Notes under the pieces: model-generated
Database searches by the model: none
What the model was told of the DNA's origin: nothing
The model's input: only the letters and a program-made list of their open reading frames with translations
Shown: one piece after another, positions 12,991-29,516 of the stretch
How the letters are laid out: each line of letters begins with the position of its first letter
Position numbering within the stretch: position 1 is the first letter of the stretch
Translations under genes and position numbers: made by a program
Assembly: GCF_001190925.1 (NCBI RefSeq)
Contig: NZ_CP011072.1
Coordinates: 4,650,001-4,714,000, forward strand
Length of the DNA stretch: 64,000 nt
Direction: 5' to 3'
Origin: Azoarcus sp. CIB
GTDB taxonomy: Bacteria > Pseudomonadota > Gammaproteobacteria > Burkholderiales > Rhodocyclaceae

Positions 12991-13713
12991 CTACTTGCGC
13001 GGAGCCAAGATCATGCCATCCAGCTTGCGTTCGCGGCGAATTTTTTCCTGCGCCGCAAGCGCGGACTCGCGGTCCGGATAGGGACCGAGCACGACCCTGG
13101 CCTGCAGATACGCCGGATAGCCCTTTCGCTCGAGCTCCCGGCGCATGCCTTCGGCATTGGCCGTATCGAGAAACACGCCCAACTGGATGAGGTATCCGGA
13201 CCCCGGCGGCGGCCCCGCATGCAGGCGCGGCGCATCGGCCGGTTGCGCAGCGGCAGCCGGCGCCGGGGGCGCAACCACCGGCGCCTCGGCCTCCCGGGAG
13301 GCCTCGACGGAGGCCGCGGGCGGTGCCGGGACGACTGCAGCGGTCCATGCCGGCGGCGACGCCTCCGGAGCGGCCATCGCGCTGTCGGGCACGGCCGGCA
13401 TCGGCGCGGATGGAGTCTCTGCACTCCCGGCTTGCACGGCTTCGGCAGGAGAACCCTGCTCCGCCACGACTGCAGCCGCCTCCTCCGCAGACGCGACCGG
13501 GGCTGCAGGCGCGGCGCTATCCGCGGCGGGGCCAGCCGGTTCGGCGGGCGCGGGAACGGCGGGCGCAACCGGCGGCGCAGCCGCTTCGCGGCCCTCCACC
13601 AACCACAGCGATGCCGTCAGCGCCATGAGGGCGACGATCGCCATCAGCGCCCGCTTCAGGCTGGCCTTGCGCGGATTTTCCACATCCGCGCCCGCGGTGA
13701 GCGATCGGCTCAT
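12991..13713 (-). CDS. SPOR domain inner-membrane protein
   Basis: A 240-residue protein with one transmembrane segment near residues 22-40 and a long Ala/Pro-rich periplasmic linker. The C-terminal SPOR domain (about 168-240) starts at GSGYLIQLGVFLDTANAEGM and contains the 'VVLGPYPDRESA' stretch. SPOR domains bind denuded glycan strands at the septum, so a role in cell division or envelope is likely but not proven. Its start overlaps the end of the DUF2802 gene by four bases (ATGA), so the two are probably cotranscribed. Confidence 0.88.
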   Translation of the reverse strand: MSRSLTAGADVENPRKASLKRALMAIVALMALTASLWLVEGREAAAPPVAPAVPAPAEPAGPAADSAAPAAPVASAEEAAAVVAEQGSPAEAVQAGSAETPSAPMPAVPDSAMAAPEASPPAWTAAVVPAPPAASVEASREAEAPVVAPPAPAAAAQPADAPRLHAGPPPGSGYLIQLGVFLDTANAEGMRRELERKGYPAYLQARVVLGPYPDRESALAAQEKIRRERKLDGMILAPRK

Positions 13714-14276
13714 GGCTCCTTCCCGGACTCGCCGGCCTGGCTGCGCGCCAGCGATTGCACGAGTTCGGCCTCGGCGACGGTGATGCCGCAGCGCTCGGCG
13801 ATCGTTTCGGCATCCAGCCCGCGGCGCGCGAACACCAGCGCCTCGTTGTATTCGGGCGACGCACCGTGGGTCACGACGCCCGCATCGGCCTGTTCAGTGC
13901 GCGCACGCAGCTGCTCGCGGATTTCGTCGAGTTCGCGCCGCAGTTCGGCCAGCGCGCTACCTTGCTGCTCGAGCTCGCGCCGCAGCTGACGGACCTCCAG
14001 CTCGTGCTGGAATGCGTCCGGGGCAGCATCTGCGCCGGCGGACGCGGGACGGCCGACGCTGTAGAGCGGGCCGGGCTCGTCATCGTCGTCGCTTTCGGCG
14101 ACAACGACATCAACGCTTTCGGGCGCCTCAGTGGGCGCCTCAGCGGGCACTAAGGCCAGCGGCTCGTCCGGCACGGGCGCCGAAGCCTGCGGCGCACGCG
14201 ATGCGCGGTAGAGCTGGTAGCCGACATAGACCGCAAGGAGCGCGATTGCGGCCAGAATGAGTTCACGCAGTCCCAT
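13710..14276 (-). CDS. DUF2802 domain membrane protein
   Basis: A 188-residue protein with one N-terminal transmembrane helix (residues 5-25), an acidic Pro/Ala linker, a coiled coil rich in Leu, Glu and Arg (about 95-130) and a C-terminal helix-turn-helix-like DUF2802 segment. That segment contains 'EALVFARRGLDAETIAERCG' and the following Glu-Leu repeats. DUF2802 proteins are common in Betaproteobacteria and have no settled function. It lies upstream of and overlaps the SPOR gene. Confidence 0.8.
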   Translation of the reverse strand: MGLRELILAAIALLAVYVGYQLYRASRAPQASAPVPDEPLALVPAEAPTEAPESVDVVVAESDDDDEPGPLYSVGRPASAGADAAPDAFQHELEVRQLRRELEQQGSALAELRRELDEIREQLRARTEQADAGVVTHGASPEYNEALVFARRGLDAETIAERCGITVAEAELVQSLARSQAGESGKEP

Positions 14277-14388
14277 TCGACCTCACACAGGAGACAGGAC
14301 AAGAAGGATCGTGCATCGGGAAGGCAAGCCGGAGCAGGCGCGACGACGGATAAGTCGGGGATAATACTGGCGCCCCACTATCCCGACA

Positions 14389-15168
14389 ATGCAGATGGCC
14401 TTCGATTCCGCGCTCGCCCTGTTCTGGCTCAAGAAGACCGTCTCGATCATGGTGCAGCCGCCGGTCGCGCCGCTGCTGCTGATCGCCGTCGGACTGCTGC
14501 TCGCGGCACGCTGGCGGCGGGGCGGCTTCGCGCTCGCGTGGGCGGGCGTCGTGGCCACCTTGCTGCTGTCGACACCGGCGAGCGTAGGCTGGCTGCTGAA
14601 CGGCCTCGAGACGGCGCCGGTGGTCGATGCGGCGGCGATGCGCGAGGCGCAGGCCATCGTCGTGCTCGGAGCCGGCAAGCGGCGCCATGCGCCCGAATAC
14701 GGCGGCGAGACGGTCAACCGCCTTGCTCTGGAGCGGCTGCGCTACGCCGCCCGGCTGGCGCGCAGGACGGGGCTGCCGGTGCTGGTCAGCGGCGGCGCGC
14801 CGACGGGCGACGTGCCGGAGGCCGTGCTCATGCAGGCAACGCTCGAAGAAGATTTCCGCGTTCCGGTGCGCTGGGTCGAGAGGGCCTCGCTCGATACGCA
14901 ACAGAACGCGCTGTTCTCGGCGGTGCCACTGCGCGCCGCGGGCGTGCGCCGCATCCTGCTCGTGACCCACGCCGCCCACATGCCGCGCGCGCAGGCAGCC
15001 TTCGAGGACGCCGGGCTGCAGGTCATCCCGGCACCGACTGCGTGGCTCGGCGGCACCGGGGCGGGCGACCAAGTGCTCGGGGAGCTTCCCGGGCCGACCA
15101 GCGCCTATGCCGGCTGGTATGCCGTGCACGAGTGGCTGGGGCTGCTGGCATACCGCCTGACGCGCTGA
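14389..15168 (+). CDS. YdcF/ElyC-like DUF218 membrane protein
   Basis: A 259-residue protein with two N-terminal hydrophobic segments (about 22-40 and 45-65) and a C-terminal DUF218 domain. Conserved DUF218 pieces are IVVLGAGKRRHAPEYGG, 'VSGGAPTG', 'EAVLM' and 'RILLVTHAAHMPRA'. Relatives include ElyC, SanA and YdcF, linked to envelope integrity and peptidoglycan or enterobacterial common antigen synthesis; the exact reaction is unknown. Start could be Met1 or Met3 (14395). It is divergent from the DUF2802 gene. Confidence 0.85.
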   Translation: MQMAFDSALALFWLKKTVSIMVQPPVAPLLLIAVGLLLAARWRRGGFALAWAGVVATLLLSTPASVGWLLNGLETAPVVDAAAMREAQAIVVLGAGKRRHAPEYGGETVNRLALERLRYAARLARRTGLPVLVSGGAPTGDVPEAVLMQATLEEDFRVPVRWVERASLDTQQNALFSAVPLRAAGVRRILLVTHAAHMPRAQAAFEDAGLQVIPAPTAWLGGTGAGDQVLGELPGPTSAYAGWYAVHEWLGLLAYRLTR

Positions 15169-15387
15169 GAGGGCGCGACTAGACCGCCCTGAATAGGGTC
15201 GCAGCCCTGCCGCGTGACATGTATCCGTGTTTGCGTTTCGCCGACCGCTTGCCTATAGAAACTTAGGCGCCATAAAAAGCTGTCGCGGCGATTCGCTTGC
15301 GGCACTTCGCCGGACCAGCACTGCATATGCGCCTCGGGCATTGCCTCGTCATCGGGGCGGCGGCCCGGAACCCAACAGGAGCGGACC

Positions 15388-18006
15388 ATGAAAGTGCTCG
15401 TCACCGCCGGCGTAGCCGTCGGCGCTCTGCTCGCCATGGTGTTCGTTTCGGCCGATCGCGATGCGGGCATCTCCCCCTCCCTCTCCCCCTCCCTCTCCCC
15501 CTCCCCGCTGGTCTCCGCTGCCACCGCCCAGCAACCCGCGCCCCTGCCGCCCGTGGTGGCGCCGGACAAGCCGATACCCGAGAGCACGTCCGTCGACCAG
15601 GACGCGCCCTATTTCGAGGCCTGTGCACGCGAGGGCCTGTCGGAATCGGCCTGCGTGGGACGGCTGATCTGGTTCAAGGCGACCGCGGGCAACGAGCGCT
15701 TCCACACCTATGTGTTCCAGCAGCGCATCGGCGTGCTGCCGGACTGGTATCGCGTGCTGCGAGCCGACCAGCGCGACGACCGCTTCCGCGCGTGGGGCCT
15801 GATCAACGACCCGTCGTGCTGCGTGCCGGGCGAGGCGAACTGCCCGGCGAAGAGCCGCGACGAGACCTACGGCTTCGACTGGTGTCCGGGCGACGATGTG
15901 TTGCTGAAGCACGTCGGCAAGCCGGGCTACATCGATCCCGCCTGCGGCCTGAAGGACGCGGCGCTCGACCCGGCCGACCCGCACGCGAAGGACGGCCGCG
16001 ACCAGCGTCATTCGGCCTGCGACCTGCGCTTCGGCACCTCGACCGGGGCGCTGGGCTTCCGCAAGTTCCCGAACCCGCGCTTCGACGCGGAGCAGTGGAA
16101 GAAGCTGAACGGCGGCCTCGGCACCTGGGAAGGATTCGGCAAGCGCATGATCGAGCAGACGAAGGTCCCGTCGGACGAGCGTTTCAGCCGCCTCGCGGAC
16201 GCGTCGGTGGAACCGCCCTTCCTGATCGGCACGAGCTGCGGCGCCTGCCACATCGCCTTCGACCCGCTCAACCCGCCCGCCGACCCGGCGCACCCGCGCT
16301 GGGAGAACATCAAGGGCCTGGTCGGCAACCAGTACATCCGCAAGTCGGAGATCCTCGGCTCGGGCATACCGAAGTCCAGCCTGGAATGGCAGATGTTCGC
16401 GCACGCGCGGCCCGGGGTGACCGACACGTCGGCGATCCCGCATGACGGCGTGAACAACCCGGGCACGATCAACGCGCTGATCAATGTCGCGCAGCGCCCG
16501 ATCTTCCCCGGCGAATCGATTGCGAAATGGCGCAAGGCTGCCACTTGCGGCGCGGAGAAGGACGAGACGAAGTGCTGGTGCGAGCCGGGGCGCGAGACGA
16601 AGTGCTGGGAGAAGAGCACGCGCAGCGACGACACGACGCTCGGCAAGCCCGGCGTGCATCACATCCTGAAGGGCGGCGAGGACTCGATCGGCGCGCTCGA
16701 GGCGATCCAGCGCGTGTATTTCAACATCGGCTCGTGCTCCGAGCAGTGCTGGCTGAACCACCTCACGGACCTGCGCCAGGTCGACCCGCAGGCGCGCTAC
16801 TTCGGCCAGACGCCGTTCAACATCGGCCAGTGCCGGCGCGACTGCCCGAACTTCCGCGCGATCGAGGACCGGCTGGCGGACATCCTGGCGTTCTTCCTGT
16901 CGCCCGAATCGAATGCGACCGATCTCGCCGTCGCGCGCAATGCGGTGCGCAAGGCGGCCGACGCGGCGGCACCCGAATACAGCCGCGACAGCCTCGTCGC
17001 CGACCTGGAGATGGAGCACGGGGCGGGGGCCGTCGGACGCGGCGGGGCGGTGTTCGCGGCGAACTGCGCGCGCTGCCACTCGAGCATTCCGGAAAGCGTC
17101 GGCGGTCCGTTCGCGAACCGCGACTTCTACGCGCTCGCCGACAACGGCCTGCGCGCCGACTGGCTGGGCAACGACGTCGCCACGCCCGCGACCGAGGTCG
17201 GCACGAACCGCTGCCGCGCGCTCCATTCCAATCACATGGCCGGCCACGTATGGCAGGAATACGGCTCGGAGACGCTGCGCACGCGCGCGGCGGACATCAA
17301 CGTCAAGGAACCGAACGACGGCGGGCGCGGCTACTACCGCAACGTGTCGCTGCTGAACCTGTGGGCGCACGCGCCCTTCATGCACAACAACGCGATCGGG
17401 CCGGAACTGTGCGGCAAGCCGGCGAACGCGGCGAACGATTTCTTCCGCGCGCGCGAACTCGACGCCGACGGTAAGCTCGCGGCGACGCAGGGCGAGTGCT
17501 TCCAGACCGATCCGGGCGTGGAGGGACGCTACCGGCTGTACCTCGCGTCGATGCACGAACTGCTCTATCCGGACGCGCGCAAGCCCAAGGCGACGCTGAC
17601 CGACCAGGACGTGGTCCTCGACCTGGGCCCGCGCGTGTGGGACGGCACGAGCGAGAAGCCGCTCGTCGGCAGCGGGCAGGTTCGCATCCCGGCAGGCATT
17701 CCGGCCAACTCGATGACCAGCCTGCGGCACAAGGACCTGGTGGTGGATCTGTTCCTCGCCAAGCGCGACCCCGCGAAGCTAGAGGCGCGCGTGGGCAAGG
17801 AAACGACCGGGCAGATGCAGAAGCTCGCGGACGACATCCTCGCTGCACCGGAGCAGTTCGCCGGACTGCTGCGCGGCCAGCGCGAGCTGCTGCGCCAGCA
17901 CTACAGCAACTGCACCGACGAGATCGAGAACGGCGGCCACCGCTTCGGCGAGGACCTGTCGGACGCGGACAAGAAGGCGCTGATCGCCTTCCTCGCGACC
18001 CTGTGA
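15388..18006 (+). CDS. large Cys-rich diheme c-type cytochrome, RoxA/MauG-superfamily like
   Basis: An exported 872-residue protein. An N-terminal signal or anchor (residues 1-22) is followed by a low-complexity SPSL repeat. There are two heme c sites: C284-G-A-C-H288 and C560-A-R-C-H564. After the second heme comes LWAHAPFMHNNAIGP, which resembles the APYLHNGS segment of RoxA-like oxygenases and diheme peroxidases. Extra cysteines lie between residues about 140 and 495, including CWCEPGRETKCW, CSEQC and CRRDC, so several disulfides or metal sites are possible. It is first in a run of six genes; the next starts 18 bp after its stop. The substrate is unknown. Confidence 0.8.
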   Translation: MKVLVTAGVAVGALLAMVFVSADRDAGISPSLSPSLSPSPLVSAATAQQPAPLPPVVAPDKPIPESTSVDQDAPYFEACAREGLSESACVGRLIWFKATAGNERFHTYVFQQRIGVLPDWYRVLRADQRDDRFRAWGLINDPSCCVPGEANCPAKSRDETYGFDWCPGDDVLLKHVGKPGYIDPACGLKDAALDPADPHAKDGRDQRHSACDLRFGTSTGALGFRKFPNPRFDAEQWKKLNGGLGTWEGFGKRMIEQTKVPSDERFSRLADASVEPPFLIGTSCGACHIAFDPLNPPADPAHPRWENIKGLVGNQYIRKSEILGSGIPKSSLEWQMFAHARPGVTDTSAIPHDGVNNPGTINALINVAQRPIFPGESIAKWRKAATCGAEKDETKCWCEPGRETKCWEKSTRSDDTTLGKPGVHHILKGGEDSIGALEAIQRVYFNIGSCSEQCWLNHLTDLRQVDPQARYFGQTPFNIGQCRRDCPNFRAIEDRLADILAFFLSPESNATDLAVARNAVRKAADAAAPEYSRDSLVADLEMEHGAGAVGRGGAVFAANCARCHSSIPESVGGPFANRDFYALADNGLRADWLGNDVATPATEVGTNRCRALHSNHMAGHVWQEYGSETLRTRAADINVKEPNDGGRGYYRNVSLLNLWAHAPFMHNNAIGPELCGKPANAANDFFRARELDADGKLAATQGECFQTDPGVEGRYRLYLASMHELLYPDARKPKATLTDQDVVLDLGPRVWDGTSEKPLVGSGQVRIPAGIPANSMTSLRHKDLVVDLFLAKRDPAKLEARVGKETTGQMQKLADDILAAPEQFAGLLRGQRELLRQHYSNCTDEIENGGHRFGEDLSDADKKALIAFLATL
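15471..15506. repeat. 12-bp tandem repeat, three copies
   Basis: Three copies of CTCCCCCTCCCT (the last ends in C) in tandem inside the start of the large cytochrome gene. They encode Ser-Pro-Ser-Leu units just after the signal segment. As the unit is a multiple of three, slippage would change linker length without breaking the frame. Confidence 0.9.
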
Positions 18007-18024
18007 GCGAAAGGAGACCGTGCC

Positions 18025-18918
18025 ATGACCCGCCACACCTTTCGCTCCCTGCGCTCCCTTCGCACCCTGGGCCTCCTAGGCGCCGCGCTGGCGCTGCTTG
18101 CCGCCTGCGGCAAGACCGAGCCGCCGGCCATCCCCTTCGCGCCGTACGCGACGGATTACGCGAGCAAACCCGACTTCGCCCAGCTCGAGCACCAGTTCCC
18201 GCTGACGCCGGCCGAGCTCGCGAAGATCACGCCGGAGAACCTCGCGGTGCTGAACCAGGAGCAGCTCGACCAGATCTATGCGCGCCTCGCAACGGGGCCG
18301 ATCCCGGACGGCCCCTTCGACGGCAGCATCGTCCTGCCCGAGGGCGAGAGCGGCAAGCTGCGCGCGGGCGAGATCGTCGGCGGACTCGCCGGCTTCGCGC
18401 TGCACCTGAAGGGCATCGCTGTCGACAAGATCGGCGAGACGTTGTGGAAGGGCAAGGTGTTCTACCGCAATGAGCGCGTGCTGCGGAACCGCATCGAGGA
18501 TCTGGAGATCTTCCGCAAGGCCGGTCTCGTCGAAGGCGAACCGAAGAAGATCACCGTCGGACGCAAGGACGCGTGGCTGCTGTTCCCCGCCAAGCTGTAC
18601 TGCGGCCAGAGCCTCGTCGATTCGCGGCGCGAGTCGGTGATCATCGACTACGCCTTCACCGACGAGCTGCCGGGCTATCAGGAGAAACCGGACTTCCTCG
18701 CCGGCCGGCGCGGACTCAAGGTGCGCGACGAGATCCGCATGGTGCGCCCCGGCCTGTACCTCGGACGCGCCTACATGGACCGCGTGTTCGTGCTGAACTT
18801 CGTCCTCTACAACAAGGAAATCGCCGAGCGCGACGGTCCGGCCTTCCAGAAGACGGGCAGCGTGCAGGAAGACTGCTGGGGCGGCACGCAGAAGCGGGTC
18901 GTCGTCGCAACGAACTAG
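18025..18918 (+). CDS. lipoprotein of unknown function in cytochrome cluster
   Basis: A 297-residue protein with a lipoprotein signal: a basic N-terminus, a hydrophobic stretch and the lipobox LLAAC with the acylated Cys at residue 28. No Asp follows the Cys (CGKTEPP), so outer-membrane sorting is expected by the usual Lol rule. The mature part contains two more Cys (in KLYCGQSL and QEDCWGG) and no CxxCH, so it is not a cytochrome. I recognise no family. It lies between two cytochrome genes with gaps of 18 and 31 bp, so it probably works in the same envelope complex or pathway. Confidence 0.75.
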   Translation: MTRHTFRSLRSLRTLGLLGAALALLAACGKTEPPAIPFAPYATDYASKPDFAQLEHQFPLTPAELAKITPENLAVLNQEQLDQIYARLATGPIPDGPFDGSIVLPEGESGKLRAGEIVGGLAGFALHLKGIAVDKIGETLWKGKVFYRNERVLRNRIEDLEIFRKAGLVEGEPKKITVGRKDAWLLFPAKLYCGQSLVDSRRESVIIDYAFTDELPGYQEKPDFLAGRRGLKVRDEIRMVRPGLYLGRAYMDRVFVLNFVLYNKEIAERDGPAFQKTGSVQEDCWGGTQKRVVVATN

Positions 18919-18949
18919 GCCGGCCACGGGCGGCGAGGAGAATCCGGCG

Positions 18950-20725
18950 ATGCGCGCCGCGAACCGGGCCAGTGTGGCGATGCTCGCGGCGGCGCTCGCG
19001 GTCGCGCTGTGGGACTACGGCCGCCGGGCCCCGCCCAGCGCGGCCGAGCCCACCGCGGCGGCGCGCGGCGAAGCCCGCACGACGTCGGCACCGCCTGCCC
19101 GCCTGGTGCTTGCGCCGGACGCCTACGGCGAGGACCTGCCACCGGCCGGCGCGTCGCTGTTCGACCAGCGCGTCGCGGCGCTCGGCGGCGCGGCGGCCCT
19201 GCCCTATCCGTTCGAGAAACTGCTGCAAGGCCTGGAAGGCGGCGGACAGTGCGCGGACCTGCCCGACGGGCGCTGCCTCGTGCGCGTGCTGATCCCGATC
19301 GGCCGTTCGCTGCAACGCCTCGCGGCGGCGCCGGAGTTCTTCCGCCACCCACGCGTCGTCGCCGCCATGGCCGGCGAACCGGCCGCCCACGGCCCGGGTC
19401 CGCTGCAGCGCGACCGTCTGTATCTCGGCCACGTCGGCGACAGCGAGGTCATCGAGGTCATCAGCTACAACGAGGCAGCCGCCCGCTTCGAATTCCAGCT
19501 CGTGCTCGACTACCGCAGCGGCGCACGGCCACGCGTCGTGTACGCGTCGCGCGCGCTGTGTCTCGCGTGCCACCAGAACCATGCGCCGATCTTCTCGCGC
19601 CCGCTGTGGCAGGAGACCAATGCGAATCCGGCGATCGCGGAGAGGCTCGCGGCGCGGCAGGCGAGCGTCGAGGGGGTGCCGGTGCGGCGCGGCATCGACC
19701 TCCCCGGCGCGATCGACGCCGCTGCCCAGCGCGCCAACCGCTTCGCGCTGTGGCAGACGCTGTGGCGCACGGGTTGCGGCGACGGCGAGCGCGGCGCACG
19801 CTGCCGCGCCGCGCTGTTCGAGGCCGCGCTGCGCTACCGCGCGACGGGACGCCACGAGCACGTCGCGCTGCATGACGCGATCCTGCCCGCCTTCGCCGCC
19901 GCTTGGCAGGCCCACTGGCCGGGCGGGCTCGCGCTGCCCGACGCCAACATCCCCAACCGCGATCCGCTGCCGGAAGGACTGGCCCGCGCGGACGGCGTGA
20001 TGCTCGCGAACATTCCCGCGCCGTTCGAGCCGCTCGCACCGCGGCCGCCGCTCGAAGTCTGGCAGCTGCCGGACACCCGGCGCCTCAACGAAACCGTCGC
20101 GGGGCTGGCCGACCTGCTGGGCGAACACGATCTCGCCCGCCTGCGTGCCGCCCTGCGCGGCCATGCGTCGCAGGCGGCCGACTTCGCCCGCGTCGGCGGC
20201 GCGATCGCCGCCCTCGCCGCTGCGCCGGGCGGCGGACCGTTCGCCGCGGGGCCGTTCCGGCGCGAAGCGCTGATGGCGGCGCTCCTCACCCGGCTCGGCA
20301 GTCCGGAACGCGAATCCGTCCCCCTCGCGACAGCGGCACCGGTGCGCGACAGCCCGCACTTTCCGCCCGCGACGTCCGCCGGCCTGTTCCAGCGCTACTG
20401 CACCCCCTGTCACCAGACGCCATCGGGCACCCCGCCGAATTTCCTGCACGGCGACGAGGCGACCGTGCGTGCCCGCCTGACGCACTGCGCCGCGCGCATC
20501 CGCTATCGCCTCGCGATGTGGCAGCAGGCGCCGGAGACACGCGCGAAGACGCCGATGCCCCCGCTGCAGGCGCTGCGCCCGCTCGGCGCCGACCCGTCGA
20601 GCTGGGCGGCGAGCGCCGAGCTCGCGACGCTCGCCGCCTACGCCACCGAACTCGCGGGCGGCGCACCGATGCCGCAGCCGGACAACTACGAGGCCCTGCC
20701 TCCCTGCCTGCCCGCCTCGGGCTAA
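18950..20725 (+). CDS. diheme c-type cytochrome of unknown function
   Basis: A 591-residue exported protein with an N-terminal hydrophobic segment (residues 8-21) serving as signal or anchor. There are two heme c sites, C204-L-A-C-H208 and C484-T-P-C-H488. The first is in a domain with 'ASRALCLACHQNHAPIFSRP'; the second is near the C-terminus, after a Pro-rich 'PHFPPATSAGLFQRYC' stretch. It differs from the two following cytochromes and I cannot assign a family. The gene ends 11 bp before the next start, and a good ribosome site (AAGGAG) lies between them. It is the third gene of the cluster. Confidence 0.78.
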   Translation: MRAANRASVAMLAAALAVALWDYGRRAPPSAAEPTAAARGEARTTSAPPARLVLAPDAYGEDLPPAGASLFDQRVAALGGAAALPYPFEKLLQGLEGGGQCADLPDGRCLVRVLIPIGRSLQRLAAAPEFFRHPRVVAAMAGEPAAHGPGPLQRDRLYLGHVGDSEVIEVISYNEAAARFEFQLVLDYRSGARPRVVYASRALCLACHQNHAPIFSRPLWQETNANPAIAERLAARQASVEGVPVRRGIDLPGAIDAAAQRANRFALWQTLWRTGCGDGERGARCRAALFEAALRYRATGRHEHVALHDAILPAFAAAWQAHWPGGLALPDANIPNRDPLPEGLARADGVMLANIPAPFEPLAPRPPLEVWQLPDTRRLNETVAGLADLLGEHDLARLRAALRGHASQAADFARVGGAIAALAAAPGGGPFAAGPFRREALMAALLTRLGSPERESVPLATAAPVRDSPHFPPATSAGLFQRYCTPCHQTPSGTPPNFLHGDEATVRARLTHCAARIRYRLAMWQQAPETRAKTPMPPLQALRPLGADPSSWAASAELATLAAYATELAGGAPMPQPDNYEALPPCLPASG

Positions 20726-20736
20726 GGAGCGCGACG

Positions 20737-22269
20737 ATGCCGATCCTGCGCCGATCCTCCCCCAAACCGCCCCCGCCCGCGCCACCCGCAAGACGCTGGT
20801 GCTGCGGCGTCTTGCTCGTCCTCGCCGCGCTGATGCTGGTCCCGGCGACGCTCGCCGTTGGGCTGTACGTGCGCTTTTCCGCCGACGAGCCGGTGGGCTA
20901 CCCGGACATCGAGCGCCACTTCAAGTACGGCTCGACCGGCGGCGAACGCGCATCGGGCTTCCCGTACTGGATCTGGCAGGTGCTGCCCAAGGTGTGCGCG
21001 AAGTACCTGCCCGGCGACGGCTACGCCTCGCTCGGCATGATCTTCGAGGAAGGCCGCACGCTGCCGGTTGGCGTGTCGATGCGCCGCAACCTCGGCCTCG
21101 ACCGCGTCTTCCTCAACTGCGCGGCCTGCCATGCCGGCACTGTGCGCGACACCCCCGAGGCCGCGCCGCGCGTGTATCTGGGGATGCCGGCCCACCAGCT
21201 GAACCTGATGGGCTTCGAGAACTTCTTCTTCAACTGCGCCGCCGACGCGCGCTTCAGCCCCGACACCATCATCCCCGAGATCGACGCGCGCGCCGGCAAG
21301 CTCAGCCCCTTCGACCGCTACGTCGTGTATCCGGTCGCGATCGCGCTGATGCGCGAGCGCCTGCTGATGCTGCGCGAGCGCTTCGCGTGGTCGCTGTCGC
21401 AGGCGCCCTGGGGCCCGGGGCGCGTCGACACCTTCAATCCGTCGAAGGCGCTGTTCAACTTCCCGTCCGAACGCCTCGCGCCCGAGGAGCGCATCGGCAC
21501 CACCGACTTCCCGTCGATCTGGGAGCAGCGGAAGCGCAAGACGCGCGACGACGGCCAGCCGATGCAGCTGCACTGGGACGGCAACAACACCAAGGCCGAG
21601 GAGCGCAACAAGAACGCCGCCTTCGGCACCGGCACGACGCCGCCGACGATAGACCTGGTCGCGATCGGGCGCCTCGAGGAATGGCTGCTCGACGCCGCAC
21701 CGCCGAAGTACCCCTATGCCATCGACGCGGCGCTCGCCGCACGCGGCGCGCCGCTCTACGCCGAATACTGCGCCGGCTGCCACGGCGCCAGCGGGCAGGA
21801 CTTCCGCGGCCCGCTGGTCGGCCACGTCACGCCGCTCGCGGGGATCGGCACCGACCGCCACCGCCTCGACTCCTTCACCCCTGAGCTCGCGCAGAACCTC
21901 GGCTCGGTCTATGCCGGCTACCCGTGGCGCTTCACCGGTTTCCGCAAGACCTTCGGCTACGCCAACATGCCGCTCGACGGCCTGTGGCTGCGCGGCCCCT
22001 ACCTGCACAACGGCTCGGTACCGACCGTGCGCGACCTCCTCGAACCGGCCGCGCAGCGCCCGGCGAGCTTCTGCCGCGGCTACGACGTCATCGACCGAGA
22101 CAAGCTCGGCTTCGTCAGCGACGTGTGCGAGGAAGGCGCGCGCACGTACTTCCGCTTCGACACGGCGATCCCCGGCAACGGCAACGGCGGCCACGAGGGC
22201 GGGCCCTACGGCACCGAGCTGCCCGCCGACGACAAGGCCGCGCTGGTCGAATACCTCAAGACCTTCTGA
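20737..22269 (+). CDS. membrane-anchored RoxA-like diheme cytochrome c (paralogue 1)
   Basis: A 510-residue protein with an N-terminal transmembrane anchor (about residues 20-46) and a periplasmic part with two heme sites, C128-A-A-C-H132 and C345-A-G-C-H349. The segment GPYLHNGSVPTVRDLLEP after the second heme is typical of RoxA-like cytochromes, a group related to rubber oxygenases and MauG-type diheme enzymes. The ATG at 20737 was chosen because AAGGAGC precedes it and the anchor follows; the longer open frame overlaps the upstream gene. The last residues (LVEYLKTF) match the next paralogue. Oxygenase or peroxidase activity is possible, but the substrate is unknown. Confidence 0.82.
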   Translation: MPILRRSSPKPPPPAPPARRWCCGVLLVLAALMLVPATLAVGLYVRFSADEPVGYPDIERHFKYGSTGGERASGFPYWIWQVLPKVCAKYLPGDGYASLGMIFEEGRTLPVGVSMRRNLGLDRVFLNCAACHAGTVRDTPEAAPRVYLGMPAHQLNLMGFENFFFNCAADARFSPDTIIPEIDARAGKLSPFDRYVVYPVAIALMRERLLMLRERFAWSLSQAPWGPGRVDTFNPSKALFNFPSERLAPEERIGTTDFPSIWEQRKRKTRDDGQPMQLHWDGNNTKAEERNKNAAFGTGTTPPTIDLVAIGRLEEWLLDAAPPKYPYAIDAALAARGAPLYAEYCAGCHGASGQDFRGPLVGHVTPLAGIGTDRHRLDSFTPELAQNLGSVYAGYPWRFTGFRKTFGYANMPLDGLWLRGPYLHNGSVPTVRDLLEPAAQRPASFCRGYDVIDRDKLGFVSDVCEEGARTYFRFDTAIPGNGNGGHEGGPYGTELPADDKAALVEYLKTF

Positions 22270-22285
22270 TGCCGGAGGCGGCGTG

Positions 22286-23794
22286 ATGCAAGCCACGAAC
22301 GAGAACGACACGGGCAGCCCGGGCAACGATCCCCTCGCGCCCCCGCCCAGGCACCGCTGGCTGTGGATCGCGCTGACCGTGCTGCTCGCCGCCGGCGCCG
22401 CGCTCGCCTACCTCGGCTGGTACCGTTTCCTGCGCGAGGAGGCACAACCGGCGTGGGTCACCGCCACCCCCGAGATGCGCTGGAAGTACGGCTCGATCGG
22501 CGCGGAGAACGACGCGGGCATCCCGTACTGGATCTTCTACGTGCTGCCGCGCATCTTCCCCGAGAAGCTCCCCGGCGCGGGCGGCTACGCGTCGCTCGGC
22601 GTCGCCTGGGAACAGGGCATGGAGCTGCCGATCGGCTTCACCAAGAAGACCATCGGCTTCCCGCGCGTCGCCAATACCTGCGCCGCCTGCCACACCGCCA
22701 GCTACCGCAGCCGCCACGACGAGAACCCGACCTATGTCGCCGCCGGGCCCGGCCACACGCTCAACCTCGAAGCCTTCTTCCGCTACCTCATCGACTGCGC
22801 CAAGGACCCGCGCTTCACCCCCGACGTGCTGATGCGCGAGATCGCGCTGGTCACCGAACTCGACTGGCTCGACCGCCTCGCGTACCGCTTCCTCATCATC
22901 CCGATCACGAAGAAGCGCCTCCTCGAACGCGAGGCGCAGTTCGCGTGGATCTACCGCAAGGACTTCCCCGACTGGGGGCGCGGGCGCGACGACGCGATGA
23001 ACCTGACGAAGTACTTCATGATCGAGGCGCCGATGGACGACAGCTTCGGCCCCACCGACATGCCCGCGCTGTGGAACCTCGACAAGTACAAGCCGGAGAA
23101 AGGGCATTTCATGAACCTCGCCGGCGACAGCCACGACGCGCGCTCGGTGATCATCGATTCCGCGCTCGGCGTCCTCGGCGCGCCGCCCAAGGACCGCCAG
23201 GCCTTCCTCGGCCACGTCGACTGGCTGCACGCCTTCCTCGGCAAGCTGCCGGCGCCGAAATACCCGTTCGCGCTCGACGCCGAGCGCGCCGCCGCCGGCA
23301 AGGCCGTGTTCGATGCGCACTGCGCCGCCTGCCACGCCTCCGACCGCACCGGCACGCGCCTGCCGATCGCCGAGCTCGGCACCGACCGCGGGCGGCTGGA
23401 CAGCTGGAACAAGGAAGCCGCGATCGAGGCCAACCGCGTCGTGCGAGCGATGGGCATCACGCGCAAGGGCCTCGTCGAGGAAACCCTCGACGGCTACGTC
23501 ATCCCCTTCCTCGACGGCATCTGGCTGCGCGCGCCCTACCTGCACAACGGCTCGGTGCCGACGCTGCGCGACCTGCTCGAACCGCCGTCACGGCGCCCGG
23601 TCGAATTCCTGCGCGGCTATGACGTCTATGATCAGGTGAAGGGCGGCTTCGTCACCGCCGGCAGCGATGCCGAACGCGTCGGCACCCTGCACGACACCCG
23701 CCTGCGCGGCAACGGCAACGACGGCCACCTCTACGGCACGGAGTTGCCCGACGCCGACAAGGATGCGCTGGTCGAATACCTCAAGACCCTCTGA
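22286..23794 (+). CDS. membrane-anchored RoxA-like diheme cytochrome c (paralogue 2)
   Basis: A 502-residue paralogue of the preceding gene with the same plan: cytosolic Pro-rich head, one transmembrane helix (about 24-44), and heme sites C132-A-A-C-H136 and C346-A-A-C-H350. It shares 'WKYGSIG/FKYGSTG', PYWI, 'GYASLG', 'YLHNGSVPTLRDLLEP' and the ending LVEYLKTL. The heme-to-heme distance (214 residues) is almost that of paralogue 1 (217). ATG 22286 follows GGAGG with good spacing. Tandem duplication and divergence, perhaps to form a heterodimer, is the simplest reading. It ends 33 bp before the TIR-LCCL gene. Confidence 0.82.
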   Translation: MQATNENDTGSPGNDPLAPPPRHRWLWIALTVLLAAGAALAYLGWYRFLREEAQPAWVTATPEMRWKYGSIGAENDAGIPYWIFYVLPRIFPEKLPGAGGYASLGVAWEQGMELPIGFTKKTIGFPRVANTCAACHTASYRSRHDENPTYVAAGPGHTLNLEAFFRYLIDCAKDPRFTPDVLMREIALVTELDWLDRLAYRFLIIPITKKRLLEREAQFAWIYRKDFPDWGRGRDDAMNLTKYFMIEAPMDDSFGPTDMPALWNLDKYKPEKGHFMNLAGDSHDARSVIIDSALGVLGAPPKDRQAFLGHVDWLHAFLGKLPAPKYPFALDAERAAAGKAVFDAHCAACHASDRTGTRLPIAELGTDRGRLDSWNKEAAIEANRVVRAMGITRKGLVEETLDGYVIPFLDGIWLRAPYLHNGSVPTLRDLLEPPSRRPVEFLRGYDVYDQVKGGFVTAGSDAERVGTLHDTRLRGNGNDGHLYGTELPDADKDALVEYLKTL

Positions 23795-23827
23795 CCCTTC
23801 CTCCCTCGCGGACACGGCATCCGACGC

Positions 23828-25450
23828 ATGACTCCCGCACCGACCGCCTTCATCAGCCACGCCGCCGACGACGCCACGACCGCCGCCGAGCTGTGCCGCC
23901 ACCTCGAATCGCGCGGCATCCGCTGCTGGATCGCCCCGCGCGACGTCACGCCGGGCCGCGAATACGCCGCCGAGATCCTCTCGGGAATCGAATCCTGCAA
24001 CGCCTTCGTGCTGCTGCTTTCCGGCCACAGCAATGAATCGCTGTTCGTGCACCGCGAAGTCGAACGCGCGACGAGCAAGGGCAAGGCGATCTTCCCGGTG
24101 CGCATCGAGAACGTGCTGCCCGACCGCGAGCTCGAACTCTTCATCTCCTCGGCGCACTGGATCGATGCCTGGGAGCAGCCGCAGAGCGACCAATGGGAGC
24201 GGCTTGCACAGGCAATCCGGGGCGTTCGCCCGACCTCCACGCCCGCCGGGCTCCGGCACCACACCCCGCCCGCAGGCGCGAGTCGCGCGCGTCACCTGCG
24301 CCTCGCCGCCGGCATAGGCATCGTCGTCGTGGCAATCCTCGCCGGCAGCTGGATCATGCGCGGTGAACGCGCACCCGACGCGCCGCCTGCCGATTCCGGA
24401 CCTCGGCCCGCAGCCCCCGCCGGGCCGTCAGAGGGCCGCGTCACGCCCGACCGCGTCGCTCCGGTCGTCCCCGACGAAGCGCTACGGACGGACTCCCCGC
24501 AGCCGGCGCCCGAACAGCCTGCTGCTCGGTCCGCAGGAGCCCCCGAGGCCGTCGCCCCCTGCCCGCAGACCATCGCGTCCGGACCCAAGCGCCCGACGCC
24601 GGTCACCTGTGACTGCAGCGCCGACAACATCGGCGCCGGCACGGTCTGGGGCTCGGACCTGTACACCACCGATTCGAATCTCTGCGATGCTGCCGTACAT
24701 GCGGGAGCGATCACCCGCAGTGGCGGCACCGTCACCGTCGAACGTCGTCCGGGACGCCTGCTGTACGTCGGTTCGTCCCGCAACGGTGTCGTCTCGCACG
24801 ACTACGGCGCCTTCGGCACCAGCATGCACTTCGCCGGAACCCCCTTGCCGGCGGAACCCGGCCCCTGCCCCGCGCGCCTGTCCGTGAACCTCAACCTCCC
24901 CACCCCGTTCACCTGCACCTGCAGCGCCGACCGCGTCGACGACGGCACCGTCTGGGGCTCGAACCTCTACACCACGGATTCCAGTCTGTGCCAGGCGGTC
25001 GTACATGCGGGAGCGATCGCCCGCAGTGGCGGCACCGTCACCGTCGAACGTCGGCCGGGACGCCTGCTGTACGTGGGTACACCACGCAATGGCGTCGTCT
25101 CGCACGACTACGGCACCTTCGGCACCAGCATGCGCTTCGCCGGCACGCCCGACCCTGCGGAGCCCGGCCCATGCCCCGGCCGGCTGTCGATCAATGCCAA
25201 CCTCCCCACCCCCTTCACCTGCGTTTGCAGCGCCGACCGCGTCACCGACGGCACCGTCTGGGGCACGGACCTTTACACCGCCGACTCGAGCCTCTGCCGG
25301 GCCGCGCTGCACGCGGGGGCGATCGCCCGCAGCGGCGGCACCGTCACCGTCGACTACCAGCCCGGTCTCGAGGCCTACGCCGGTACGCGTCGCAATGGCG
25401 TGGCGAGCCACGACTACGGCACCTACCCTTCAAGTATCCGCTTCCGGTGA
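23828..25450 (+). CDS. TIR domain - transmembrane - triple LCCL protein
   Basis: A 540-residue protein. Residues 5-115 form a TIR domain, with AFISHAADD, the BB-loop-like [11 protein letters not shown] and a Glu (E77 in FVHREVE) where TIR NADases have their catalytic Glu. A transmembrane helix lies at about 159-179, then a Pro/Ala-rich linker, then three LCCL domains of 102 residues each from 245 to the end. Each LCCL copy has four Cys and the family phrases VWG..LYT.DS.LC, 'VHAGAI', 'RNGV.SHDYG'. With TIR inside and LCCL outside, the layout is that of a receptor. It closes the cytochrome run; a pirin gene follows after 37 bp. TIR and LCCL are confident; function is unknown. Confidence 0.85.
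24560..25450 (+). repeat. three 306-bp coding repeats (LCCL units)
   Basis: Units at 24560-24865, 24866-25171 and 25172-25450 have the same 306-bp period (the last is slightly short) and are very similar in DNA as well as protein, notably around 'GCCCGCAGTGGCGGCACCGT'. Near-identity between copies suggests recent duplication or gene conversion. Confidence 0.88.
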
Positions 25451-25487
25451 ATTCAGGCGCCGGACCCATCAGATCGAGGATCGCCCC

Positions 25488-26381
25488 ATGACGACCGACC
25501 GCACGACCGCAACGCCGCCCCTCGTCGAAACGATCGTCGTGCCGCGCGCGAGCGACCTCGGCGGCGGCTTCAAGGTGCTGCGCGTGCTGCCCTCCGCGCA
25601 GCGGCGCATGGTCGGCCCCTTCGTGTTCCTCGACCAGATGGGCCCCGTGCAGCTCGACGCCGGCACCGGCCTCGACGTGCGCCCGCACCCGCACATCGGA
25701 CTCGCGACGGTGACCTACCTGTTCGACGGCGAGATCCTGCACCGCGACAGCCTCGGCAGCGTGCAGCCGATCCGCCCCGGCGAACTGAACTGGATGACCG
25801 CCGGCCGCGGCATCGTCCATTCCGAGCGCACGCCACCCGAGCTGCGCCCTGCCGGACCGCGGCTCTCGGGCCTGCAGGCGTGGGTCGGACTGCCGACACG
25901 CGACGAGGAGATGGCGCCCGCGTTCGCGCACCACGGGGCGGACGAATTGCCCGTCATCGCAGAACCCGGCCTGCGCATCCGCGTGATTGCCGGCGAAGTG
26001 TTCGGCGTGCGCTCGCCCGCCGAGACGCGCTCGCCGCTGTTCTACGCCGACGTTACGCTCGTACCGCAGCAGCGCCTGCAGATTCCGCCCGAGCACGAGG
26101 AACGTGCGGCCTACATCGTTGAAGGCGCCGTGCGCATCGACGGCCAGGCCTATCCGCCCGGCCAGCTGCTGGTATTCGGCCGCGGCGCCGACGTGACGCT
26201 CGCCGCGCTGGGGCCGACGCGCCTGATGCTGCTCGGCGGCGAGCCGCTCGACGGCCCGCGCTTCGTATGGTGGAACTTCGTCGCCAGCACGCGCGAACGC
26301 ATCGAACAGGCCAAGGAGGACTGGCGCGCCGACCGCTTCACGCCGGTGCCCGGGGAAACGGAACGCATTCCGCTGCCCTGA
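25488..26381 (+). CDS. pirin family protein
   Basis: A 297-residue bicupin. The N-terminal cupin carries the pirin metal and substrate segment [19 protein letters not shown] and the '[28 protein letters not shown]' region (shown in part: GRGIVHSER). Metal ligands are expected at the two His of HPHIG and the later His and Glu. Some bacterial pirins have quercetinase activity; others bind redox or regulatory partners, so the substrate here is open. ATG 25488 is used because the upstream part of the frame is the LCCL shadow; GAGGA precedes it. It follows the TIR-LCCL gene by 37 bp. Confidence 0.9.
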
Positions 26382-26410
26382 CGCGCACCACCCACCACCA
26401 GGAGGACCCG

Positions 26411-27046
26411 ATGAGCTCGACCCTGAACGAGGAAGGACGCAACCTGCTGTTCCGTGAAGCACGCACGCACAACGAATGGCTGGACCAACCGGTCGGCGAC
26501 GACACGCTGCGCGAGTTGTACGAACTGATGAAGTGGGGCCCGACGAGCGTCAATTGCTGCCCCGCGCGCATCCTGTTCCTGCGCACGCCCGAAGCGAAGG
26601 CGAGGCTGCTGCCGGCGCTCGCGCCCGGCAACGTGGAGAAGACGCGCAGCGCACCGGTCACCGCCATCATCGGCTACGACGGCCGTTTCTACGACCTTCT
26701 GCCGAAGCTCTTCCCGCACGCCGACGCCCGCGCGTGGTTCGTCGATACGCCCGAGCTCGCCGAGGCCACCGCGCGGCGCAACAGCTCGCTGCAGGGCGCC
26801 TACTTCATCATGGCTGCGCGCGCGGTCGGACTGGATTGCGGACCGATGTCGGGCTTCGACCAGGCCAAGGTCGACCATGAATTCTTCCCCGCCTCAGGGC
26901 GCACGGACAGCGAATTCAGCCAGGAATACTTCCCCGACAGCCACGTGAAGACCAACTTCCTGTGCAATCTCGGCTATGGCGACCGGGCGAAGCTCTTCCC
27001 GCGCAGCCCGCGGCTCGATTTCGACGAGGCCTGCAAGCTGCTCTGA
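26411..27046 (+). CDS. malonic semialdehyde reductase RutE-like nitroreductase
   Basis: A 211-residue FMN-dependent nitroreductase-fold protein of the RutE/HadB group, which reduces malonic semialdehyde to 3-hydroxypropionate in pyrimidine degradation and also acts on other aldehydes or quinones. Evidence: the start [20 protein letters not shown], the '[15 protein letters not shown]' segment and the 'CNLGYGD' C-terminal region, plus the length. AGGAGGA lies just before the ATG at 26411. No other rut gene is nearby, so a general reductase role is at least as likely. It is 29 bp past the pirin gene and convergent with the enoyl-CoA hydratase. Confidence 0.85.
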
Positions 27047-27094
27047 CCGCGGCGAGCCCCGCGCCGGGCACAACGGGCATGCGGCACCCGCTTG

Positions 27095-27895
27095 TCAGGC
27101 GCCGCGGAACCCGGGCTTGCGCTTTTCGAGGAAGGCATTGATGCCTTCGACGAAATCACCGGTCGCACTGCAGCGCGCGAAGGCCTCGGCCTCGCTCTGC
27201 AGCTGGATCTCGATCTTCGCGTCCGCCGACGATGCCAGCAGGCGCTTGATTTCGCCGTAGGCGTGACGTGCCCCGTTCTGCAGGCGGGCGACCAGCGCCG
27301 CGGTTTCGGCGTCGAGTTCCGCGGCCGGGACGACGCGATTGACGAGGCTCAGGCGGAACGCCTCGGCGGCATCGAAACGGTCGCCCAGCAACAGCAGTTC
27401 CGCCGCCTTGCGCCGACCCACGATGCGCGGCAGGAACCACGACATGCCGCCGTCGGCGGACAGGCCGATCGACGAATAGGCGGTCGTGAATTTCGCGCTG
27501 TCGGCGCACAGTGCGAGGTCGCAGCCCAGCATCAGCGACAGGCCGAAGCCCGCGCAGGCGCCGCGCACCTTGGCGATCACCGGCTGCTGCAGGTTCTGCA
27601 GGATCTCGACCGCCGGGTTGATGTGCTTCTCGATGATCGCGCGGAAGGCGACCATGCGCGCCTGGGGACCCAGATGGAACTGCGTCGCGAAATCCTTGAG
27701 ATCGCCTCCGGCCATGAAGTGATCGCCGGCCCCGGCGATCACCACGACGTCGATATCCTTCAGGTCGCGCAACCTGCGTGCAGCGACCAGCAGGTCTTCC
27801 ATCATCTCGATGGATAAGGCGTTGAGCTGCGCCGGACGGTTCAGCGTGAGAGTCGCTACGCGGTTTTCGACGTCGAGCAGTACGGTGTTGGCCAT
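27095..27895 (-). CDS. enoyl-CoA hydratase/isomerase family protein
   Basis: A 266-residue crotonase-fold enzyme. Family elements are LTLNRPAQLNAL, the oxyanion-hole segment AGAGDHFMAGGDLKDF, 'RGACAGFGLSLMLGCDLALC' (shown in part: GACAGFGLSLML) and the C-terminal 'FLEKRKPGF'. The usual second catalytic Glu position reads Ala-Asp-Gly (GLSADGG), where many isomerases carry Asp or Glu, so it may be an isomerase rather than a hydratase. It lies downstream of the thiolase gene across a 408-bp gap and probably belongs to the same degradation function. Confidence 0.88.
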   Translation of the reverse strand: MANTVLLDVENRVATLTLNRPAQLNALSIEMMEDLLVAARRLRDLKDIDVVVIAGAGDHFMAGGDLKDFATQFHLGPQARMVAFRAIIEKHINPAVEILQNLQQPVIAKVRGACAGFGLSLMLGCDLALCADSAKFTTAYSSIGLSADGGMSWFLPRIVGRRKAAELLLLGDRFDAAEAFRLSLVNRVVPAAELDAETAALVARLQNGARHAYGEIKRLLASSADAKIEIQLQSEAEAFARCSATGDFVEGINAFLEKRKPGFRGA

Positions 27896-28303
27896 GAACT
27901 TCCTTCCTTGCGATTATGTCTGCCGCGTCGCGGCGTTGGATCCTGATCCTCGTAGTATGCCGCGAGACTGCGTGGGTTGTAATCCGGCCGGAGCGGGGGC
28001 GGGGCAATCGCATGAATGCGCTTGTCGTCAGGTCGCTCGCGGAATTGTTCGTCAAGGCACGGACGTAGGGTGGGAGGAGCGCAGCGCATCCCACCACACG
28101 GCTTTCGGGGCCATTCCGACGGCCGAAATGGCGGGATACGCTTCGCTTCTCCCGCCCTACACGGGGTCGTACGAGTGCCCTGGCAGCGAGGCGGGGCGGC
28201 GGCCTCGCTCTTGTGATCCCGATAAGGGCGTCAAAGGTGTCTGCCGCGAGCCTGACGCCCCCAGCGCACCCGGACCATGAAGATATGGCAATCAACCGCG
28301 GGA
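27896..28303. other. 408-bp intergenic gap between enoyl-CoA hydratase and thiolase
   Basis: No convincing gene is seen. The only structured part is an interspersed inverted-repeat element at 28065-28160 (separate entry). Short open frames here lack coding character and ribosome sites. The 28200-28300 end forms the 3' region of the thiolase gene; I see no clear T-tailed hairpin there. Confidence 0.6.
28065..28160. repeat. REP-like inverted-repeat element (GTAGGGTGGG family)
   Basis: A 96-bp element bounded by 28-base imperfect inverted arms, GTAGGGTGGGAGGAGCGCAG... on the left and the complement of GTAGGGCGGGAGAAGCGAAG... on the right, with four mismatches in 28. Each arm ends in ATCCC, so it can fold by itself. 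Elements of this GTAGGGTGGG type are scattered between genes in many proteobacteria. It carries no gene. Confidence 0.75.
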
Positions 28304-29503: not shown

Positions 29504-29516
29504 GTCGTTTTCCCCT

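Follow-up and report, generated by a model that had tools for sequence, protein, structure and literature searches.

Here we analyze a six-gene locus of Azoarcus sp. CIB, located at positions 15388 to 25450 of a 64,000-nucleotide stretch of contig NZ_CP011072.1 (the whole stretch is referred to as the window, and its positions are used throughout). Genes 1 to 5 encode four diheme cytochromes and a lipoprotein, and comparison across genomes reveals that they form a conserved module (the core). Gene 6 encodes a TIR protein with LCCL repeats and occupies a variable slot behind the core, to which TIR genes have been recruited repeatedly. This suggests an undescribed bacterial signalling or defence unit. 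Individually the parts are familiar; what appears to be new is the five-gene module and the recurrence of effector genes beside it. The features are as follows.

15388..18006, plus strand: gene 1 (P0001, 872 amino acids, aa), exported diheme cytochrome with four His in RoxA-type order
18025..18918, plus strand: gene 2 (P0002, 297 aa), lipoprotein predicted to fold as a calycin-like beta barrel; marker of the core
18950..20725, plus strand: gene 3 (P0003, 591 aa), diheme protein with weak cytochrome c similarity
20737..22269, plus strand: gene 4 (P0004, 510 aa), diheme enzyme with a membrane anchor, RoxA / CytoC_perox superfamily, MauG motif PYLHNGSVP
22286..23794, plus strand: gene 5 (P0005, 502 aa), diheme enzyme with a membrane anchor, relative of gene 4
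23795..23827, no strand: junction of the conserved core and the exchangeable slot, which elsewhere holds TIR-CHASE2, other TIRs, patatin, ordinary genes or nothing
23828..25450, plus strand: gene 6 (P0006, 540 aa), TIR (residues 8-126), transmembrane segment (159-177) and three LCCL repeats; variable slot
25488..26381, plus strand: pirin gene, 3' of the TIR-LCCL gene in the window and in A. tolulyticum, directly 3' of the core in genome G009

A scan of contigs from named genomes confirmed 199 relatives, of which the best 80 were retrieved. After duplicates were removed, 145 sources gave 119 distinct loci, or 115 once L066, L075, L076 and L078 were omitted (G-numbers label surveyed genomes, L-numbers surveyed loci). 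All five genes are present in 91 of the 115 distinct core loci, the order 1-2-3-4-5 recurs, and gaps are mostly short. Identity to the window protein in aligned rows is 56-94% for genes 1, 2, 4 and 5 and 37-84% for gene 3; gene 5 is the most conserved core protein, with a mean column identity of 75%. At family level the gene 2 profile matched 43 of 249 genomes (one only weakly), at order level 19 of 399 and at phylum level 3 of 299, these last being the window's own genome and two weak matches. Core record titles are mostly of Betaproteobacteria (Aromatoleum, Azoarcus, Thauera, Zoogloea, Dechloromonas, Accumulibacter, Propionivibrio, Thiobacillus and others), and several state only Proteobacteria. 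Three loci titled Moraxellaceae, Planctomycetaceae and Muproteobacteria (L105, L112 and L141) carry a core of betaproteobacterial type and possibly derive from mis-binned or mis-named assemblies. The chromosomal surroundings of the core are shared among Aromatoleum genomes and, separately, among Zoogloea genomes. Gene 2 had no match in 72,556 plasmid records, and a plasmid-borne core was rejected.

A same-strand TIR gene lies within 3 kb downstream of gene 5 in 10 of 55 core-bearing genomes (G000, G001, G013, G016, G040, G042, G070, G736, G770 and G904), compared to an expectation of 0.114 derived from the 353 TIR_2 matches in the 55 genomes searched. Among genes chained to the core (gaps of up to 200 bp), 12 of 176 encode a TIR, versus 7 among the remaining 837 flanking genes (p 8.8e-6, Fisher test); at the genome rate, assuming 4300 genes per genome, 0.26 would be expected in the chain. 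Since loci are not independent, the labels were placed on a tree of gene 1 from 87 loci. Ten changes are required to explain the TIR label, with supported branches forcing at least 9 of them, and the label is barely more clustered than shuffled ones (54 of 500 shuffles were as low), suggesting many gains, losses or exchanges of TIR genes at this position. It should be noted that the tree codes L095 and L157 as having no effector, though L095 has a TIR and a caspase and L157 has papain and NB-ARC genes; as L095 is the sister of TIR-bearing L125, recoding could slightly lower the change count. L149 is coded as patatin though a caspase is also present, and L067 and L080, in which gene 1 is missing from the stretch seen, are not in the tree (L080 and L081 are two contigs of one genome). 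Taken together, the expected counts, the enrichment in the chain and the tree changes lead us to reject chance adjacency of TIR and core.

With gaps of up to 300 bp allowed, effector genes are chained to the core in 28 of 115 loci (TIR 14, patatin 11, caspase 4, papain 3, NB-ARC 1; some loci have more than one). The TIR genes are of diverse architecture. In A. diolicum (G013), the slot after gene 5 holds a TIR-CHASE2 gene and a FecR-domain gene. The TIR of G070 has a DUF3108-like end (below the DUF3108 cut-off), and that of L150, which lies between genes 2 and 3, has a Sad1/UNC-like end. In four loci the TIR is at the C-terminus behind a long N-terminal part (L065, L074, L143 and L173), L105 has a 425-aa TIR, and L125 and L136 each have a 291-aa TIR together with a protein of one family that carries an OmpA end in L136. 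Caspase-domain genes occur in L094, L095 and L149, and also in L067, where the caspase gene is placed between genes 3 and 4. A membrane patatin-like gene lies directly 5' of gene 1 in 9 loci and downstream in 2; two of this type that were scanned score 26.7-27.4 bits, just below the Pfam patatin cut-off of 27.7, and one of the 11, L160, is a 159-aa fragment at a contig end that was grouped by BLAST. In L144 there is, in addition, a patatin that exceeds the cut-off, together with a papain-like protease. In L157 (8425-12763), an NB-ARC/TPR protein and, after it, a relative of the L144 protease form an NLR-like pair downstream of the core. LCAT-like hydrolases are found in L094 (above cut-off) and L226 (below), and a DUF6603 protein in the neighbourhood of L159. 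TIR, caspase and patatin labels come from in-house hidden Markov models (HMMs), with Pfam checks on representatives and part of the chain genes; the caspase labels are from Pfam for L149 and L067 and from the in-house HMM for L094 and L095.

The TIR proteins beside the core share two further properties. All 13 examined have an invariant Glu column, putatively the catalytic Glu as judged by the motif position in SARM1-type TIRs. Furthermore, 12 of the 13 have a clear transmembrane segment, with two borderline segments in L143, versus 6 of 24 comparison TIRs. These 24, which are not random, are 24 of the 30 loci best matching P0006; they include the TIR-LCCL relative of G042 (L004) and omit L001, L002, L003, L008, L023 and L028. 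The window's own segment was missed by the automatic scan and is evident in a hydrophobicity check. The L095 TIR, outside the 13, has no transmembrane segment. The anchors, along with the differing outer parts, suggest that most core-linked TIRs are receptor-like, with the TIR side assumed to be cytoplasmic.

In the window, the slot holds gene 6, which the earlier note on this DNA had described as a TIR-transmembrane-LCCL protein, and the domains are as described. The TIR matches Pfam TIR_2 (81.9 bits, cut-off 28), three stretches match Pfam LCCL (190.5 bits, cut-off 22.6) and cochlin LCCL (1jbi, E 1e-7), and residues 159-177 form the single strongly hydrophobic segment. The LCCL repeats (24584-25353) are a 306-bp tandem array with 83% matching. 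In A. toluolicum, two contigs end within LCCL-type repeats (L080 and L023), so repeat number may vary. That note had also proposed that the six genes form a functional unit, a claim that would fail if TIR-LCCL genes never lay beside such cytochromes elsewhere. Such neighbours exist: the TIR-LCCL gene lies 33 bp after gene 5 in three Aromatoleum genomes, those of the window, A. tolulyticum and A. toluolicum. The unit itself holds for the cytochromes and lipoprotein, which are conserved, and for TIRs in general, which are above chance in other genera; it does not hold for TIR-LCCL as a fixed part. Two genomes of the same genus carry the core without it (in G009 the pirin gene directly follows gene 5, whereas in G014 the two are separated by a small gene that matched nothing in Pfam), G013 has TIR-CHASE2 in the same slot, and the sole other close relative among 101 genomes, in G042, is about 1.5 Mb from that genome's cytochrome cluster. 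We therefore reject TIR-LCCL as a fixed partner. In the G042 relative (L066:8722-9993), one in-frame stop was reported in the matched stretch.

These observations also bear on whether TIR-LCCL is an independent receptor whose place behind gene 5 reflects a single chance insertion in the three Aromatoleum genomes. The same-genus cores without it and the distant G042 relative fit this explanation, as does the rarity of LCCL, which among 349 genomes of the order occurs in only 4, counting that of the window. However, TIR-CHASE2 occupies this position in a sister species, and in other genera gene 5 is followed by TIRs of different architecture, so we consider a lone insertion very unlikely. No clear junction was seen when the slot was compared with G009, and gene 6 had four weak matches on plasmids, none covering 80% of the protein.

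The six open reading frames, all on the plus strand with gaps of 18, 31, 11, 16 and 33 bp, are as had been claimed. Start positions are approximate; the gene caller, written for this analysis, favoured 18980 over 18950 for gene 3. A single plus-strand terminator-like site was detected between 15000 and 26500, within gene 1. The gaps are free of such sites, which is weak evidence that the six genes could share one transcript. A sigma-70 promoter scan found nothing and is uninformative for a high-GC organism, and an Rfam scan of 13000-28000 gave no match at gathering scores. A 12-bp unit is present in three perfect copies near the start of gene 1 (15470-15506), where a change in copy number keeps the frame.

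Two CxxCH heme sites had been claimed for each of four proteins, and genes 1, 3, 4 and 5 have exactly two each (shuffled versions of the same proteins have 0.001-0.018). Both sites are present in every aligned row (gene 1, 22/22; gene 3, 19/19; gene 4, 20/20; gene 5, 22/22; 83 rows in total, window row included). A hydrophobic N-terminal stretch is found in all four proteins and is weak in gene 3 (1.48 versus 2.03-2.62), so a count of three anchored cytochromes was fair. The label RoxA-like, also given earlier, fits genes 4 and 5 well. Both have the MauG motif PYLHNGSVP, exceed the cut-off for Pfam RoxA-like_Cyt-c, and score 162.3 and 161.3 bits against NCBIfam NF040606 CytoC_perox (cut-off 150), whose family name is di-heme-cytochrome C peroxidase. 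Among solved structures, RoxA is the closest to gene 5 (4b2n; E 1.7e-8 as a single sequence, 1.5e-13 as a profile). Gene 1 is RoxA-like by motif layout alone: two heme sites, a variant MauG-type motif (PFMHNNAIG) and a His near the end, in the order CGACH288, CARCH564, PFMH666, GGH851. These four histidines are invariant in 22 aligned rows, as are the corresponding four in genes 4 and 5. Against NF040606 gene 1 scores merely 25.9 bits, and against Protein Data Bank (PDB) sequences it shows only weak cytochrome c similarity (E 0.02 or worse). The label does not fit gene 3, where the MauG-type motif PYxHNGSVP was looked for and is absent, and which is unlisted for NF040606. No family matched gene 3 above cut-off, and its predicted model (predicted local distance difference test score, pLDDT, 78; predicted template-modelling score, pTM, 0.80) had no fold match in the PDB (best E 1.7).

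Gene 2 is the lipoprotein that had been noted in the cluster; all 11 aligned rows keep its lipobox-type Cys28. Against Pfam and NCBIfam it scored nowhere near a cut-off. The predicted model is strand-rich (mean pLDDT 69) and, compared to PDB folds, resembles Tcur_1030 (4mve, Z 10.7) as well as many fatty-acid and retinol binding proteins (Z about 6).

We propose that the locus combines an exported lipid-oxidising module with an exchangeable output unit. As a whole this is our best explanation of the data, held tentatively and at somewhat less than even confidence. Genes 1 to 5 would form the module, anchored in the envelope. Genes 4 and 5 may encode diheme oxygenases or peroxidases like RoxA or oleate-diol synthase, as would probably gene 1, which is larger; the gene 2 barrel may hold or pass on a lipid, and gene 3, a diheme protein without a fold match, is perhaps an electron partner. 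The gene after the module would be the output unit. In the window this would be a protein that crosses the membrane once, the three LCCL domains lying outside and the TIR, with its conserved Glu, inside. This protein could sense an oxidised lipid, or envelope damage reflected by one, and respond in the cytoplasm by cleaving NAD+ or by TIR signalling. TIRs with other outer domains, or a caspase, would possibly play the same role in other lineages, and the membrane patatin could supply the fatty-acid substrate.

Lipid chemistry of the core is a putative function supported by homology and by neighbouring genes: the neighbours include patatin-like, LCAT-like and GMC enzymes, and the superfamily of the core enzymes oxidises polyisoprene (RoxA) and oleate (PA2077/PA2078). 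The GMC oxidoreductases adjoin distant gene 1 homologues in other Pseudomonadota (G634 and G495), with a divergently transcribed patatin and lipase-like hydrolase also present in G495 and a DyP-like gene in G677. We infer the lipid substrate, the topology, the sensing, the direction of signalling and the biological purpose; the evidence leans toward a lipid product over bare redox state as the signal and proves neither. If the link holds, exported redox enzymes would be the sensor arm for TIR and caspase effectors, and the scattered family of RoxA-like diheme enzymes would gain a signalling role. This raises the question of whether an oxidised lipid can switch on a transmembrane TIR.

Several observations weigh against this proposal. 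In 87 of the 115 loci, some of them truncated at contig ends, the chain lacks all five effector types (TIR, caspase, patatin, papain and NB-ARC), which means that the core must do something useful by itself, and the genes after the core include ordinary ones (fumarase, EAL/GGDEF, histidine kinase, antiporter, radical SAM and, directly next in Zoogloea-type loci, redoxin). The third-codon-position G+C content of the TIR-LCCL gene (0.835-0.850) is below that of the core (0.895-0.940), which fits a later arrival. Patatin needs 3 changes on the tree, mainly in one clade, and so looks like an inherited trait of one branch. Flanking genes outside the chain are themselves TIR-rich (7 of 837 versus about 1.2 expected at the genome rate), and from this the region could be a general TIR hot spot. 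At the level of the enzymes, sequence alignments with 4b2n do not place the equivalents of RoxA F317 and W302, the residues of an oxygenase-type heme pocket near the N-terminal heme, and the matches of gene 2 to the fatty-acid-binding type are below Z 8, possibly just a common arrangement according to the tool.

In the leading rival explanation, the core has a housekeeping role in the periplasm, in respiration or peroxide scavenging, and its operon end is a tolerant landing site giving expression to incoming genes. The loci without effectors, the ordinary genes in the slot, the redoxin next to the core in Zoogloea-type loci, the lower G+C value for TIR-LCCL and the family name shared by P0004 and P0005 all point this way. 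However, a landing site would be expected to mirror the genome, yet TIRs are about 45-fold over-represented in the chain (12 versus 0.26). Random landing also leaves the transmembrane anchors of most of these TIRs unexplained, and the caspase gene of L067 and the TIR gene of L150 lie inside the core. We therefore regard a landing site as rather unlikely, though a serious competitor.

A further alternative concerns purpose. TIR, caspase, patatin and NB-ARC domains are effector types of known conflict systems, and the locus could serve anti-phage or anti-predator defence, in which an attack would damage the envelope and alter lipid oxidation, and the TIR or caspase would kill or arrest the cell. 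In addition to the effector types, the recurrent swapping is typical of such systems, and one caspase resembles the EACC1-associated type (38.6 bits, below the cut-off of 140). On the other hand, PADLOC returned no family for genes 1 to 5 at E up to 1, and the shared chromosomal settings and the lack of a gene 2 match in the plasmid records are unlike many defence systems. A defence role of this kind seems improbable to us. Within the proposed lipid-oxidising module with its output unit, a more specific version would be an oxylipin-like alarm circuit running from a phospholipase (patatin or LCAT-like) through RoxA-like oxidation and lipoprotein presentation to a membrane TIR or caspase, ending in NAD+ loss or cell death. 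This version is speculative, and we would not expect it to be correct in full. If true, the circuit would resemble phospholipase-lipoxygenase signalling in the immunity of animals and plants, and lineages would have swapped its receptor domain.

Some loci depart from the common arrangement. Genes 4 and 5 are missing from the stretch seen in L068 and L154, where three other genes, including a DyP-peroxidase-like gene (72.6 bits, cut-off 100.5), lie 3' of gene 3; the set is also found at L227:11020-15029, and its other two proteins had no Pfam match in the copies scanned. Amidase_2/SH3, astacin/matrixin-like protease and membrane patatin-like genes, as a whole set or in part, lie 5' of gene 1 in the Thiobacillus/Hydrogenophilales-type loci L149, L145, L159, L151 and L203, and some of these have a beta-propeller, FecR protein or alpha-amylase-like gene within the core. 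In the window, the pirin gene downstream of gene 6 is left outside the proposed system. Adjoining the locus on the minus strand (27095-31898) are genes for enoyl-CoA hydratase, thiolase and 3-hydroxyacyl-CoA dehydrogenase, and these genes, which could bear on the lipid hypothesis, have homologues at the same place in other Aromatoleum genomes (L061 and L064).

We compared the locus with known systems. In open-licence literature, listings showed no paper on LCCL with a TIR domain in bacteria, on a di-heme peroxidase gene cluster in Rhodocyclaceae, on transmembrane TIRs with an anti-phage role or a periplasmic sensor, on TIRs combined with periplasmic and CHASE2 features, or on exported redox enzymes as input to TIR or caspase effectors. 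Judged by title and the start of the abstract, the papers that were listed dealt with other subjects, the P. aeruginosa oxylipins or RoxA. The TIR proteins resemble those of Thoeris (ThsB / ThcB4), with 19.2 bits to ThcB4 for P0006 and 38-47 bits for L105, L083 and L074. Membership was rejected, as all fall short of the ThcB4 cut-off of 220 and P0006 scores 17.3 against ThsB_TIR (cut-off 21.2); the PADLOC matches of gene 6, to TIR-bearing or other models, are weak (best E 5.6e-9).

The TIR and caspase conflict systems of Kaur et al. are alike in having exchangeable effector or sensor domains beside a constant component, and CHASE2 is named there as a variable receptor domain (PMC8195603). They differ in that the accessible portions of these two papers name no exported diheme cytochrome as a component; in a word search of that text, 'cytochrome' occurs only in apoptosome or reference passages and LCCL is absent (PMC7159879, PMC8195603). 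They also differ in their STAND-type (NB-ARC) gene, seen here in one locus only (L157) of the genes scanned.

The rubber oxygenases RoxA and RoxB (4b2n) are, like genes 4 and 5, diheme c-type proteins; both groups carry the MauG motif PY(F/L)HNGSVP, and their distal His lies near the C-terminus. Genes 4 and 5 differ as a membrane-anchored pair within a five-gene module, and nothing points to rubber use. Rubber degradation was rejected, as the best score against RoxA, RoxB and RoxC (cut-offs 900-1000 bits) was 83.1, for gene 4 to RoxC.

The oleate-diol synthase of Pseudomonas aeruginosa (FadCcp, PA2077/PA2078) is described, in the accessible part of the source, as a periplasmic tandem pair of exported diheme proteins with a MauG motif (PMC4496055). 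By description alone, genes 4 and 5 are likewise a tandem exported pair of this type. To our knowledge, the PA2077/PA2078 system has no lipoprotein and no counterpart of gene 1 or gene 3. The accessible part of a further source reports that the oxylipin products of this P. aeruginosa quorum-sensing system signal through a receptor (PMC6377657). That receptor is a LysR regulator, whereas the candidate receptor in the window is a TIR protein.

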